Virus record (IMG/VR): IMGVR_UViG_3300049027_000002
Coordinates: 1-29,777 of that record
Length of the DNA: 29,777 nt
Strand: one strand, 5' to 3'
Source: a virus
Below the pieces are notes generated by a model, which did not search any database, was not told where the DNA came from, and saw only the letters and a list, made by a program, of their open reading frames with translations. Of this stretch, positions 792 through 9,249 are shown one piece after another. Every line of letters begins with the position of its first letter. Within the stretch, counting starts at the first letter, position 1. The position numbers and the translations under genes were made by a program.

Positions 792-936
792 ATGGGTAAA
801 CAAGCTTTACAGCTTGGTGACTTAGTTGAAAATGGATAATGGCCTAAATCAATCAGCCATTGTCAAAGTGTTAAATGGAAAGGCATCTCATCACAAAGGA
901 TGGAGGAGAGTAGGTAATGGGCACTCCCATAATTAA
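792..936 (+). pseudogene. Frameshifted mini helix-turn-helix ORF (IENR1/NUMOD-like remnant)
   Basis: Two short overlapping ORFs, 792-839 (15 codons, preceded by AAGGA) and 832-936 (34 codons), join into one plausible protein if one copy of the near-tandem AATGGAT/AATGG at 831-842 is removed: a 7-base change restores the frame. The joined product would be about 45 residues. Its second half (NQSAIVKVLNGK...HHKGWRRV) matches the pattern of the small DNA-binding modules found at the ends of homing endonucleases (IENR1/NUMOD type). It overlaps the start of the primase gene. It may be a decayed homing-endonuclease tail or a small regulator broken by the duplication. The family match is by eye only. 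Confidence 0.4.
902..910 (+). promoter_or_regulatory. Ribosome binding site of primase-helicase
   Basis: GGAGGAGAG lies 6 bases before the ATG at 917 and fixes that start. It is among the strongest Shine-Dalgarno matches on the + strand of this window. Confidence 0.75.
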
Positions 937-2659
937 AATGCCCTGTTCCTGTGGAAGTAGGGCGGGGAAACAATGTTTCCTAGAAGATGACGGTCGTATC
1001 ACTGCGTATTGTTTTGCATGTGCCACTTATGACCCCCATCCCTTAGGGAAAGACGCGAACAAAGATACTATTGATCTCCCACCCGCTAAAACTCCCGAAC
1101 AAATTCAGGAAGAAATCGCTGAGGTAAGTGGATATCGATGCGTTGATGTTCAAGAAAAGAGGCTGAGAGCCAAGCACCTAGAGAAATTCTCTATTAAGGT
1201 GGGGCTCTCAGAGGTGGATGGTAAGACGCCAGAAACCATGTACTATCCCTATCGTAAGAAGGGGAAGATAACAGGCTATAAAGTGAAGCTGCTTCCTAAA
1301 GATGGGCAGCCTAAGCGTATCTGGTCTATTGGTGATCTCAAACATAATGAGGAAGGCGATGTTGAGCCTTTCGGATGGCAAGAAGCTATTGCTCATGGTG
1401 GACGTAAGCTAATCATCACAGAAGGTGAAGACGACGCTGTAGCCGTACAGAGTCTCATGGAGAGGCATACGAAGGATGAGTGGAAGGATCATATCCCCGC
1501 TGTCATCTCGCTCTCCCACGGGGCTGGTAATGCCGCTGAGTGCCTATCTAAATGGAAGAAGGAAATCACTGGTCGTTGGCAGGAAATCATTCTGCTATTC
1601 GATATGGATAAAGCTGGAGAGGAAGCTGTACAGAAATGTATGCTAATCATTCCAGAAGCTGTGACAGTGAAGCTTCCATCTAAGGACGCCAATCAGTGTA
1701 TCATTGATGGACGTGCTAAAGCTGCGTTCGAAGCTATTCAGTTTCGAGCGGAGAAGCCTAAGAACTCCCGTCTTGTATTCGGAGACGACCTACACGAAGT
1801 GGCTAAAGAAGAAGCCAAGTATGGCGAGCTATCGTGGCCATGGGAACATCTGAACAAGAAGACTAGAGGCATCCGTCTCGGTGAAACTATCTACATCGGG
1901 GCTGGTGTTAAGATGGGGAAGAGCGAAATTCTTAATGAACTCGCTGCTCACTTCATCAAAGAACATGGCGTGAAAGTGTTCATGGCCAAGCCTGAGGAAG
2001 CTAATAAGAAAACTTATAAGCTGATGGCTGGTAAAATTGTTGGGAGAAGGTTCCATGATCCAGACGTTGAATTTGATTATGAGGCGTATGAAGAAGCTGG
2101 TAAAATCCTTAAGGGTAAGCTGGCTATGGTCAATCTCTATCAGCATCTTGGATGGGATAGCCTTCGTGATGATATTGTCGCTGCTGCTCATTGGGGCGCT
2201 AAGGCGGTATTTATTGATCCGATTACAAACCTCACAAACGGAGTGAACGCAGCAGATGCTAATACAGAACTTCAAAAGATCGCTCAGGATTTGGCTGCAA
2301 TGGCACTTGATCTTAACATTGTTGTCTTTATCTTCTGCCACCTCAAGGCGCCAGATGGGAACATTGCTAAAGAAAAACGTGAAAAATCCTACCGTGAGGG
2401 AAAATATATTGGACTTGGTGTGTGTCCGCACGAACTCGGCGGTGATGTTATATCTAGCCAATTTGCGGGATCAAGAGCGATGATGCGTTCATGTAATATG
2501 ATGCTTGGGCTTGAAGGTAATAAGGATGAGGCACTAGACGATAATGTCAAGAATATTCGCCATCTTGTTCTTCTTGAGGACAGAGAGTTTGGGGAAACCG
2601 GAAGGTTCCCAATCTTCTGGTCAAAGAATACAACTAAGTTCTCGGAGCTTCACGAATGA
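917..2659 (+). CDS. Primase-helicase, T7 gp4-like
   Basis: Bifunctional replication protein that primes lagging-strand synthesis and unwinds DNA ahead of the phage polymerase. Domain order in 580 residues: an N-terminal zinc-binding primase finger (Cys10, Cys12, Cys20, Cys32, Cys35); a Toprim core with the acidic motif ITEGEDD at 168-173 and the DMD pair at Asp229/Asp231; then a RecA-type DnaB/T7 helicase domain with Walker A GAGVKMGKS at 328-336, Walker B VFIDP around Asp434 and a histidine sensor at His475. Length is close to T7 gp4 (566). A strong ribosome site precedes ATG 917. The stop overlaps the HNH gene by ATGA. The last residues, SKNTTKFSELHE, are nearly repeated at the end of that HNH gene, which suggests the HNH gene was inserted into the original 3' end. 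Function is confident from the motifs. Confidence 0.93.
   Translation: MGTPIIKMPCSCGSRAGKQCFLEDDGRITAYCFACATYDPHPLGKDANKDTIDLPPAKTPEQIQEEIAEVSGYRCVDVQEKRLRAKHLEKFSIKVGLSEVDGKTPETMYYPYRKKGKITGYKVKLLPKDGQPKRIWSIGDLKHNEEGDVEPFGWQEAIAHGGRKLIITEGEDDAVAVQSLMERHTKDEWKDHIPAVISLSHGAGNAAECLSKWKKEITGRWQEIILLFDMDKAGEEAVQKCMLIIPEAVTVKLPSKDANQCIIDGRAKAAFEAIQFRAEKPKNSRLVFGDDLHEVAKEEAKYGELSWPWEHLNKKTRGIRLGETIYIGAGVKMGKSEILNELAAHFIKEHGVKVFMAKPEEANKKTYKLMAGKIVGRRFHDPDVEFDYEAYEEAGKILKGKLAMVNLYQHLGWDSLRDDIVAAAHWGAKAVFIDPITNLTNGVNAADANTELQKIAQDLAAMALDLNIVVFIFCHLKAPDGNIAKEKREKSYREGKYIGLGVCPHELGGDVISSQFAGSRAMMRSCNMMLGLEGNKDEALDDNVKNIRHLVLLEDREFGETGRFPIFWSKNTTKFSELHE
2624..2659 (+). repeat. Tail-coding repeat, copy 1 (end of primase-helicase)
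   Basis: Codons for KNTTKFSELHE plus stop. By hand alignment 24 of 33 bases match copy 2 at 3112-3144 (one codon, cac, is absent there), and both copies end in GAATGA overlapping the next gene's ATG. Read as target-site material duplicated or re-created during HNH insertion. Confidence 0.6.
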
Positions 2660-3144
2660 AACTTACACTAGAGTATCTTAAAAATAATTACTATTATTGG
2701 TGTGGCAGGTTGTGGTGGATTTCTACTCAAACACCTGTGGGCACTAGGAGTGAGCATAATGGTAAAATCTACCTTAAGATTAACATCAAAGGTGAGATGC
2801 ATTATGTTCACAGACTAATATTCTGGTTAGAAAAAGGATATCTGCCAGAGCTGGTTGACCACGAAGATCAGAATACCTTAAACAATTCCATAGACAATCT
2901 TAGGGATATTAGTCATAGTCACAATCTACTAAACGCTAAGGTGAAATCAAATAATATTTCTGGAGTTACAGGGGTAAGATGGAATAAAAAGGCTAAGAAA
3001 TGGGTAGCTCGTGTAAGCTTTAGGCGCAAGGAATATCATTTAGGGTGTTTCGGCAAATTTGAAGATGCCGTGCAAGCTAGACAAGATAAAGTTGAAGAGT
3101 TCTTTAGAAACAAGAACACAACACTATTTTCGGAATTGGAATGA
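2656..3144 (+). CDS. HNH homing-type endonuclease with AP2 DNA-binding domain
   Basis: A 162-residue free-standing HNH endonuclease of the phage homing type. The HNH core spans about residues 50-92: HR at 52-53, LVDHEDQNTLNNSIDNLR at 66-83 with His69 and the asparagines that complete the fold. Residues 101-142 form an AP2-like DNA-binding domain (GVTGVRWNKKAKKW...HLGCFG). The start overlaps the primase-helicase stop (ATGA) and the stop overlaps the sigma-factor start in the same manner. Residues 151-162 (RNKNTTLFSELE) repeat the primase-helicase C-terminus, so this looks like a selfish gene that entered the 3' end of the helicase gene and kept reading into the displaced tail, preserving coupling to the next gene. 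Its AT-rich codons differ somewhat from its neighbours. Confidence 0.88.
   Translation: MKLTLEYLKNNYYYWCGRLWWISTQTPVGTRSEHNGKIYLKINIKGEMHYVHRLIFWLEKGYLPELVDHEDQNTLNNSIDNLRDISHSHNLLNAKVKSNNISGVTGVRWNKKAKKWVARVSFRRKEYHLGCFGKFEDAVQARQDKVEEFFRNKNTTLFSELE
3112..3144 (+). repeat. Tail-coding repeat, copy 2 (end of HNH gene)
   Basis: Codons for KNTTLFSELE plus stop, matching the primase-helicase tail at 2624-2659. The changed bases are mostly at third codon positions, which suggests the peptide sequence was kept under selection or that the copies came from different phage alleles. Confidence 0.6.
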
Positions 3145-3644
3145 TGACTAGAGACGAAGCAATTACTACCTTCTATAAGAAGAATTATAAACATCTAGTC
3201 AATCGTATGGTGGGGCGTGTTCCTAACAACTCTCATGCTATTGCTGAGGAAGTGGTGCAGGATGCCTTTGTTAGAGCATTGGAATACTGGCGTACATTTG
3301 ACCAGAGCAGAGAGATTGCCCCTTGGTTCAATCGTATTCTAGCCTTCTCCCTTCGTGAAACTATTCGTAAGGAAAATGGTGGTCCTCTATCTCTAGATGA
3401 TGAAGACCAGTTTCTTGAACCATTCGTATTGAATGATGATATTGATATTCCTCCAGATATTGTTCGTATTGTACAGAAGGCTATCAGTGAACAGCCTAAT
3501 GATAAGAGGGAGGTGCTACATATGTTCTTCAACCTTGGTATGAAGACTAGGGAGATTGAAGAATGTACCAATCTCAATCATTCTAACATCCGACAGATCA
3601 TTAGACGCTTTCGGATTAAGTGGGAAGATGAAAATATTTTTTGA
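3141..3644 (+). CDS. ECF-type RNA polymerase sigma factor
   Basis: A 167-residue protein with the two-domain plan of an extracytoplasmic-function sigma factor. Residues 10-78 match sigma region 2 (AEEVVQDAFVRALEYW, then PWFNRILAFSLRETIRKE), which contacts the core polymerase and the -10 element. Residues 114-160 match region 4 (EQPNDKREVLHMFF, then a helix-turn-helix NLGMKTREIEECTNLNHSNIRQI), which reads the -35 element. Regions 1 and 3 are absent, as in ECF factors. The start is ATG 3141 or ATG 3144, coupled to the upstream stop. No phage RNA polymerase is seen in the window, so the likely role is to redirect the host polymerase to later phage promoters; that role is inference. An unrelated host-derived regulator is the alternative. 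Confidence 0.82.
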   Translation: MMTRDEAITTFYKKNYKHLVNRMVGRVPNNSHAIAEEVVQDAFVRALEYWRTFDQSREIAPWFNRILAFSLRETIRKENGGPLSLDDEDQFLEPFVLNDDIDIPPDIVRIVQKAISEQPNDKREVLHMFFNLGMKTREIEECTNLNHSNIRQIIRRFRIKWEDENIF

Positions 3645-7565: not shown

Positions 7566-8433
7566 CGCAGATGTCCTCCGTTATGAAATTGGTCATTGCG
7601 GAGAATACGACGAGGTTGATGAGGCAACTGGTGAAAAGACACATCACGTAAGGGAATTTGAATTTGTTCAACAACTTCTTGACGATCGTATCAAAGGGAT
7701 TTGCGAAGATGTTGAGGCCACAGAGCCTCCCATCCTCTTCCTCACAGGTTCTAACAAGTCAACGGAAATTATCAATCGAACAAACAAGGCTAGTGGAGAG
7801 CCTCTGCTCATTCTTGAGCAACCGTTCCGAGAACGGATTGCTACTGTCAAACCGTATAAGGGAACACGTCATCACGAGAAACCTTTTCATTTTGACAACC
7901 TCACAGCCTATATACTCGGAGCTTACGACTGTCGCGTATCTAATGGGTTCGAAGCTGACGATCTCATCTGTATCGAACAGTGGTCTAGGCGTAACGATAT
8001 GGATACTATCATCTGTACGCGAGACAAGGATTTACGTATGTGCCCCGGCTGGCAGTTCGGTTGGGAGTGCGGACTTCAACCCTCCTTCGGACCAGAACTG
8101 GTGGACGCTAAAGGATGGATAAAGCTTAAGCAGAACAAGAATGGTTCTGAGATTAAGGGAGTGGGGCTTAAGTTTTTCTTCGCTCAGATGCTTGTAGGGG
8201 ACACAGTGGATAATATTCCCGGCTGTCCTAAGATTGGTCCTGTGAAAGCTTTTGAAATCCTAGACGCATGTAATACTAAACGTGAACATGAGCTTGCTAT
8301 CATTGAGGCGTATAAGAAACCCTATCCAGACAACTACAAAGAAATGATTGAAGAGCAATCCAAGTTGTTGTGGATGGTAAGAGAACTCAATGAGGATGGC
8401 TCTCCTAAACATTATGAATGGAAATTTGAATAA
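7543..8433 (+). CDS. 5'-3' exonuclease, T7 gp6/FEN-like
   Basis: A 296-residue PIN/FEN-type nuclease that probably removes RNA primers and degrades host DNA for dNTPs, like T7 gp6. Metal-site acids appear in family order: Asp8/Asp10 (LIDAD), Glu137-Asp139-Asp140 (FEADDL), Asp161/Asp163 (TRDKD), then Asp220/Asp223 with the H3TH segment VGDTVDNIPGCPKIGP. An upstream ATG at 7525 is possible, but ATG 7543 has GGAG at 7532-7535 and starts directly before the conserved first strand, so it is preferred. It complements the polymerase, which lacks this domain. Confidence 0.9.
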   Translation: MKRQPLIDADVLRYEIGHCGEYDEVDEATGEKTHHVREFEFVQQLLDDRIKGICEDVEATEPPILFLTGSNKSTEIINRTNKASGEPLLILEQPFRERIATVKPYKGTRHHEKPFHFDNLTAYILGAYDCRVSNGFEADDLICIEQWSRRNDMDTIICTRDKDLRMCPGWQFGWECGLQPSFGPELVDAKGWIKLKQNKNGSEIKGVGLKFFFAQMLVGDTVDNIPGCPKIGPVKAFEILDACNTKREHELAIIEAYKKPYPDNYKEMIEEQSKLLWMVRELNEDGSPKHYEWKFE

Positions 8434-8864
8434 TGGCAGGACGCATCGGAGGACCACGAACACGTAACTCCGGGAAATGGACAGACGCCCAATTTAAATC
8501 TTTTATTAAAGGAAATTTGAGGCGTATCACGAGTAGGTGGGGGCCAACAGGCGAAACGCTTAAAGAAGCTCGGACCCGTAGGGGGTTCTACCTATGTAAT
8601 GGTTGTAAGGAAGAGGTTCCTGCATCTACTCGTGATGAAAAAGGTAAGCGTGTTAAGAACATACATATCGATCATATCAATCCAATTATTGATCCGGCTG
8701 TAGGTTGGGTCAGTTGGGATGAGACGATTGATAGAATGTTTAGTGAAAAAGATAATTTACAAGCTTTGTGCTACTCCTGTCATAAAATTAAGACAGATGC
8801 TGAGAAAGCCATAGCCAAAGCTCGAAGAGACAAAAACAAGGAACAAGATGAGGAAGACCCCTGA
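8433..8864 (+). CDS. HNH endonuclease with zinc cysteines
   Basis: A 143-residue HNH nuclease. Cys55/Cys58 and Cys113/Cys116 can form the structural zinc knuckle; the active strand is HIDHINP (Asp80, His81), with Asn108 and the final His117 (CYSCH). The body is close to the general HNH restriction/replication type and lacks a visible AP2 or NUMOD module. Position right after the 5' exonuclease suggests a role in DNA processing or host DNA breakdown, perhaps filling the place T7 gives to its gp3 resolvase; a homing role is the alternative. It starts at a TAATG overlap. Confidence 0.87.
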   Translation: MAGRIGGPRTRNSGKWTDAQFKSFIKGNLRRITSRWGPTGETLKEARTRRGFYLCNGCKEEVPASTRDEKGKRVKNIHIDHINPIIDPAVGWVSWDETIDRMFSEKDNLQALCYSCHKIKTDAEKAIAKARRDKNKEQDEEDP

Positions 8865-9249
8865 GTTTCACGGGGATACCCACAGCCCGCTGTATAAGAA
8901 ATGGCGTACCATGAGACTTAGGGTTAATTATCCTAGTGTGAATGGTTATGAAAATTATGGTGGTCGTGGGATTAAAATTTGTGAACGTTGGGATAGCTAT
9001 CTGAATTTTAAAGAAGATATGGGGCCAACATTTGTAGTTGGCCTCACACTTGATAGAATTGATCCCGACGGAGACTATTGCCCTGAGAATTGTAAATGGG
9101 CAACTCGTGACGAACAACAAAGAAGTAAAAGAAAGCATCATCGATTTAATGGTGAGCTTATTTCTGTATACGCCCGAAGAATGGGCCTTAATTATGAAGG
9201 CTGTAGATACCGATTTAAACGGTATGGCTCGCCAGAACCAAGGAATTAA
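8848..9249 (+). CDS. Homing-type DNA-binding protein with LDRID...NCKWAT signature
   Basis: A 133-residue protein of a family common in phages, with an N-terminal WRTMRLRV segment, GGRGIKICERW at about 38-48, then LDRIDPDGDYCPENCKWAT and an arginine-rich stretch. The last third resembles a short HTH of the type that follows homing nucleases (YARRMGLNYEGCRYRFKRYGSPE). Such proteins are often labelled HNH- or endonuclease-like, but no full HNH triad is visible here. It overlaps the previous gene by 17 bases. Probably a small mobile or DNA-targeting gene; catalytic activity is not shown. Confidence 0.6.
   Translation: MRKTPEFHGDTHSPLYKKWRTMRLRVNYPSVNGYENYGGRGIKICERWDSYLNFKEDMGPTFVVGLTLDRIDPDGDYCPENCKWATRDEQQRSKRKHHRFNGELISVYARRMGLNYEGCRYRFKRYGSPEPRN

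Follow-up and report, generated by a model that had tools for sequence, protein, structure and literature searches.

An HNH/AP2 endonuclease gene between a phage primase-helicase and a sigma factor gene, with a diverged copy of the helicase tail on either side

Introduction

How can a selfish gene enter a replication gene that a phage cannot do without, when the neighboring genes overlap tightly? This question is raised by a virus fragment from IMG/VR (29,777 bases, referred to below as the window), in which an HNH endonuclease gene stands between a primase-helicase gene and a gene of the sigma-70 region 2 family, and in which the helicase and the HNH protein end in almost the same residues. 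The locus is described below together with its relatives lacking the HNH gene and with comparable loci in unrelated phages.

The three genes of the locus

The nearest group for the replication genes of the window is Zobellviridae. The primase-helicase gene (917–2659, plus strand), with Toprim and DnaB_C domains in Pfam, is Zobellviridae-like and forms a complete open reading frame including its present tail. Its stop codon overlaps the start of the next gene as ATGA at 2656. That gene (2656–3144, plus strand) encodes a protein of 162 amino acids, which Pfam, alignments, and AlphaFold identify as a free-standing homing-type endonuclease of the HNH_3/AP2 kind. The HNH_3 domain (residues 49–91; 2800–2928, plus strand; Pfam E 3.7e-11) has an intact motif, with H52, D68-H69, N77, and N81 kept in an alignment with 31 homologues, and it is followed by a putative AP2-like DNA-binding domain (residues 102–139; 2959–3072, plus strand; E 1.5e-5), whose 25.6 bits are under the curated Pfam cut-off of 33.3. 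The AlphaFold model is confident to about residue 150, and residues 155–162 have pLDDT below 50. The sigma-70 region 2 family gene (Pfam; 3144–3644, plus strand) comes next; the program-made list of reading frames puts its start at 3141 instead of 3144, the start backed by relatives. The preliminary description had seen the same ATGA overlap at both junctions. The four letters are indeed present at 2656 and 3141, but at the sigma end the coupling is probably TGATG, with an overlap of one base, rather than the four-base ATGA, since in the two nearest relatives without the HNH gene, sigma begins at the position that corresponds to the second ATG (3144). A scan of the window junction for promoters and terminators gave nothing above chance.

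Two other regions of the window deserve mention. Upstream of the helicase lies a gene with a trypsin-like serine protease domain (6–662; Trypsin_2, E 5.7e-15), which is unusual beside a phage replication region. After a flap-nuclease-like gene, there are two short overlapping genes (8433–8864 and 8848–9249), one of which has a Pfam HNH match, while the other is an HNH-like sequence with no Pfam hit.

Two copies of one tail

A re-reading of the sequence confirmed that the helicase ends in KNTTKFSELHE and the HNH protein in KNTTLFSELE, as had been reported. The first copy (2621–2659, plus strand; S-KNTTKFSELHE and a stop) completes the helicase and is presumably an incoming replacement; its codons at 2624–2659 are AAG AAT ACA ACT AAG TTC TCG GAG CTT CAC GAA TGA. 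The second (3109–3144, plus strand; NKNTTLFSELE and a stop), presumably the displaced native helicase tail, is read as the C-terminus of the HNH protein, with AAG AAC ACA ACA CTA TTT TCG GAA TTG GAA TGA at 3112–3144. When the codons are aligned with one CAC dropped, the earlier hand count of 24 agreeing bases out of 33 proves exact: the alignment comprises 11 codons, of which 5 agree in full, 5 are synonymous, and 1 changes the residue.

The likeness exceeds chance. Compared over their last 30 residues, the two proteins reach a BLOSUM62 local score of 42; the best of 771 ORF C-termini scored 37, and the best of 59 other HNH C-termini 23. This motif, roughly W-N-x-N-T-T-x-F-x-E-L, belongs natively to the end of the helicases of this family and is common to about 30 of their tails. 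A profile made from the helicase tails of 30 other phages, and therefore not inflated by the window, gives 26.3 bits for the HNH C-terminus versus 19.9 bits for the helicase tail of the window itself, and among approximately 158,000 scanned decapeptides the former value is reached elsewhere by helicase tails only. The possibility that such a motif commonly closes unrelated HNH proteins did not materialize: other HNH/AP2 proteins end around LHG-FA-HG, and as a general HNH feature the motif is ruled out by the 59 other HNH C-termini, which do not have it. According to the alignment and the AlphaFold model, the second copy starts past the conserved HNH/AP2 fold, outside the folded domain. Since the motif is native to helicases, other HNH proteins end differently, and the predicted confidence is low there, the HNH protein has a helicase tail appended to it.

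Relatives without the HNH gene

In the nearest HNH-less relatives (L001 and L002, with helicases 76% identical to that of the window), the helicase ends in YWNKNTTRFTEI and YWSKNTTLFRELE, respectively, and sigma begins at the stop codon in both. Thus, the check proposed earlier, an alignment with phages that lack the HNH gene, finds the same tail motif followed by sigma at once, and further relatives agree with this pattern. The presence of an HNH gene at this boundary is sporadic: it is absent in L001, L002, and other relatives, and KpnP_VR7901 carries a different HNH gene between helicase and sigma. The latter phage was considered as a second case within Zobellviridae and rejected: its HNH gene replaces a small gene of Klyazma and shows no convincing tail copy. 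In related phages, helicases are also interrupted internally by insertions, possibly introns (L011:4993–5754, L028:2954–3613, and L029:2948–3779), those in L028 and L029 being annotated as HNH.

Which of the two copies is the older? The tails of L001, L011, and L003 are closer to the copy at the HNH end, and that of L002 to the copy in the helicase. With HNH-less helicases no closer than 76%, identity is ambiguous as to the polarity in the window, which is read from synteny and the family profile. The HNH-end copy adjoins sigma, has TGATGAC in common with L001 across the junction into sigma, and fits the family profile better; it is therefore likely the displaced original tail, and the present tail of the helicase the replacement. 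The preliminary description was thus upheld in that an HNH gene entered the helicase 3′ end with both a tail and the coupling to the next gene kept, as the HNH-less relatives and the C-termini of other HNH proteins support, while its direction, with the HNH gene copying the end of the helicase, is probably to be reversed. The searches turned up no donor ending in KNTTKFSELHE, and the 8 matches to a degenerate KNTTxFSEL tail all lacked the helicase context.

Comparable loci in other phages

In a survey of 80 viral HNH loci, HNH C-termini were compared with the C-termini of the upstream genes, and flanking DNA was compared as well. Matched tails were found at L082 and L091/L096 and an exact repeat at L122; in the matched pairs, each HNH protein carries the tail of its own host gene. 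The polarity proposed for the window, or exact duplication, is directly demonstrated at the independent loci L082, L091, and L122, each of which was compared with HNH-less relatives.

For L082, the upstream gene was compared across 65 related loci (a 66th is its own contig). The end of its HNH gene is the native tail in 28 of 28 nucleotides (L125, L132, L176, L178). Against L125, the nearest HNH-less allele, the host gene agrees in 163 of 174 nucleotides of the body and in only 21 of the last 33 (Fisher p 1.6e-5). At L091, where the upstream gene has 45 codons for amino acids, the host gene matches L362 in 38/38 nucleotides and L358 in 128/133 up to a tail switch, across which 18/29 agree and which includes 4 synonymous codon changes. 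In L358 and L362, the native genes overlap, reading GCCTTATGGGTGCTTGGCGATGCAGTCGGAATTTAA; the L091 gene is identical through GCCTTAT and continues with TTGTTCTTGGTGATGCTGTTGGATTAAGGTAA, mostly synonymous, and behind the HNH gene the native overlap is still present, with identity extending 61–85 nt into the next gene. L122 comprises a T7-gp4-like helicase and a DNA polymerase. Its HNH-less counterpart L267 has GGTAATGAGACGGAGTTTTAATGAAAATAG, which is kept behind the HNH gene of L122, with its first 21 nt repeated before it: GGTAATGAGACGGAGTTTTAA stands before the HNH start and again after the HNH end, the second copy being followed by the polymerase start, and the two copies form an exact repeat of 21–23 bp. 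In the same helicase family, L109, which has an HNH gene, and L191, which lacks it, are identical in 615 of 618 positions, yet their last codons differ, GAC TTT TAA changing to GAG TTC TAA.

A related form occurs in cultured Felixounavirus phages of E. coli, with the HNH gene in heid, dune, and FM4b and none in mio and LinBro. In the latter two, the exonuclease ends in KKYNWEPCMNED and overlaps the start of NAD synthetase by 11 nt; in the former three, the exonuclease tail is switched to a KYGWTPN form, and FM4b differs from LinBro at 10 of 21 positions in the tail and 14 of 315 in the body (p 1e-7). Behind the HNH gene of heid, the native overlap TATGAATGAAGATTAAAGG remains and provides the HNH stop codon; what is retained here is the overlap segment only, rather than the entire tail. 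Both allele types exist in phages grown on E. coli K-12, which makes direct testing possible.

Tail duplication is absent at many HNH insertions, some of which share their boundary or gene family with the loci above (L026, L135, L150/L152); a tail swap is therefore one outcome, not the rule. Local alignment of the flanks at the DNA level over 66 HNH loci, an approach weak for short diverged copies, did not make the window, L082, or L091 outstanding, and its matches at L116 (unrelated, AT-rich) and L074 (chance-like) were discarded. A scan of HNH genes in bacterial genomes gave no confirmed case.

Several side observations concern the neighborhood of these HNH genes. The upstream stop codon and the HNH start are separated by an int-alpA RNA (Rfam RF02996) at L082:2407–2473, L091:2407–2473 (slightly under the gathering cut-off), L057:746–812, and L041:1409–1475, with a TAAAAT box that overlaps or follows the host stop codon; this leader may travel with the endonuclease gene. 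Rfam detects no int-alpA RNA in the window. A different HNH gene at L135:2194–2779 occupies the same site as that of L082 and shares the recoded GGAGAATTAGAGTAAAATTT tail-leader junction, with no displaced tail behind it. Finally, L109:2030–2580 and L104:2350–2900 have near-identical HNH genes and helicase C-terminal regions that differ (..DKVEF versus ..PEINVEF), which suggests recombination with the HNH gene as a boundary.

Origin of the duplicated tail

The HNH gene could have arrived intergenically or at a staggered cut, the tail of the recipient being duplicated on the spot, much as in a target-site duplication of 20–35 bp, with the two copies diverging later under protein-level constraint. 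At L122, the native tail recurs exactly before and after the HNH gene, as such a course would produce, and repeats of this sort also permit a target-duplication route; moreover, the copies in the window differ mainly synonymously. At L082 and L091, however, the gene bodies agree with those of the HNH-less alleles at 94–100% and the displaced copies match the native tail at 100%, while the new tails are at 62–64%, far too diverged to be duplicates made in place. On the whole, duplication in place appears an improbable origin for the window pair, though it is the most credible of the alternatives.

Far less credible is a resemblance by chance or convergence, with no shared ancestry between the HNH motif and the helicase tail. 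The stretch is short enough to invite the idea (about 10 residues, with DNA identity of 24/33), but its score was reached by none of the 771 ORF C-termini and none of the 59 HNH C-termini, it begins beyond the conserved HNH/AP2 fold, and the locus-specific tail matches elsewhere contradict an accident. An equally implausible origin is a spliced element, either a group I intron or an intein, whose downstream exon would repeat the end of the gene. HNH/AP2 nucleases are frequently borne by introns, as is generally known (PMC2248197); yet Rfam gives no match at E<=0.5 anywhere in the window, so that the conserved RNA structure of a group I intron was not found, the helicase frame runs intact to a stop codon of its own ahead of the HNH gene, and the tail copies are redundant, not complementary.

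A proposed route of entry

It is probable that the HNH/AP2 gene was inserted approximately 33 nt before the helicase stop codon and brought with it a diverged replacement for the last ~10 codons. The event would begin with the HNH protein nicking or cutting the 3′ end of an HNH-less helicase gene. Repair off an HNH-bearing phage would then copy the donor's helicase tail together with the HNH gene; the expected product is directly visible at L082 and L091, where a near-identical gene body runs into a diverged tail, and for the window this path of repair is conjectural. The right-hand junction would be made with no homology to the displaced tail. In the resulting architecture, which is observed, a tail copy, presumably the last ~11 codons of the recipient, keeps its place beside the next gene and forms the C-terminus of the HNH protein. 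In this way, the helicase would retain a functional tail and the downstream gene its native start context or ribosome-binding site, and the altered tail sequence should escape further cutting. The insertion would presumably cost the host gene nothing, as the preliminary description had supposed.

Tail swapping may even be a strategy that phage HNH/AP2 genes use in general, though this is slightly less likely than not. They would then target the last 15–40 nt of coding genes and carry a recoded 3′ end that mends the host gene and at the same time removes the cut site, as in gene drives with recoded rescue, the native tail left over being of use to the next gene. In any case, the arrangement recurs in unrelated phages and offers a concrete, repeated route by which a selfish gene can enter an essential replication gene without destroying it and at little apparent cost, despite the overlapping genes of phages; it also accounts for the curious doubling of C-termini and for the gene overlaps seen next to HNH genes.

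Comparison with known systems

Free-standing endonuclease genes of T4, such as mobE and segF, resemble the window in being promoterless HNH genes between replication genes, with a start that overlaps the upstream stop codon (UAAUGA for mobE; PMC2988022); they differ in that a text search of PMC2988022 gave no description of a tail swap in the host gene. Aeh1 mobE in nrdA and T4 mobA in gene 60 are likewise HNH genes inside an essential gene that still functions (PMC2988022), but these insertions leave the host gene in two pieces, whereas the helicase of the window is kept whole by a replacement 3′ end. In the ShiLan insertion element, an HNH gene lies out of frame in the coding region of a phage methylase and the host gene is also spared; however, the element is read through in frame inside the host gene, and there is no tail duplication (PMC11855218). 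No report of a phage tail swap was met in the reviews and surveys of homing endonucleases PMC2988022, PMC10448857, and PMC2248197, or in the open-access literature searched, although an earlier report may exist.

The closest parallel comes from fungal mitochondria, where mobile ORFs with foreign C-termini have been described for atp6 of Allomyces macrogynus and for atp6, atp9, cox2, and nad3 of Glomus sp. (PMC3630166). In these, as at L082 and L091 and probably in the window, an endonuclease ORF sits near the 3′ end of the host gene, which is completed by a C-terminal segment from outside, and the native C-terminus is displaced downstream of the endonuclease ORF; the copies are diverged in DNA (64–81% for the imported copy) and near-identical in protein (PMC3630166). 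In the window, too, the host C-terminus occurs twice, before and after the endonuclease gene. The fungal elements differ in their LAGLIDADG or GIY-YIG endonucleases, their organellar setting, and their longer C-terminal segments, whereas the phage case involves HNH/AP2 genes of tailed phages, segments of ~16–36 nt, and a displaced tail that provides the next gene with its start context and in many cases doubles as the C-terminus of the endonuclease. Because the endonuclease family, the host, and the scale differ, the phage case is not a member of the fungal group, but it works like the fungal C-terminal swap hybrids. The phage loci show that the principle found in fungal mitochondria operates in phages as well, as a natural parallel to recoded-rescue drives.
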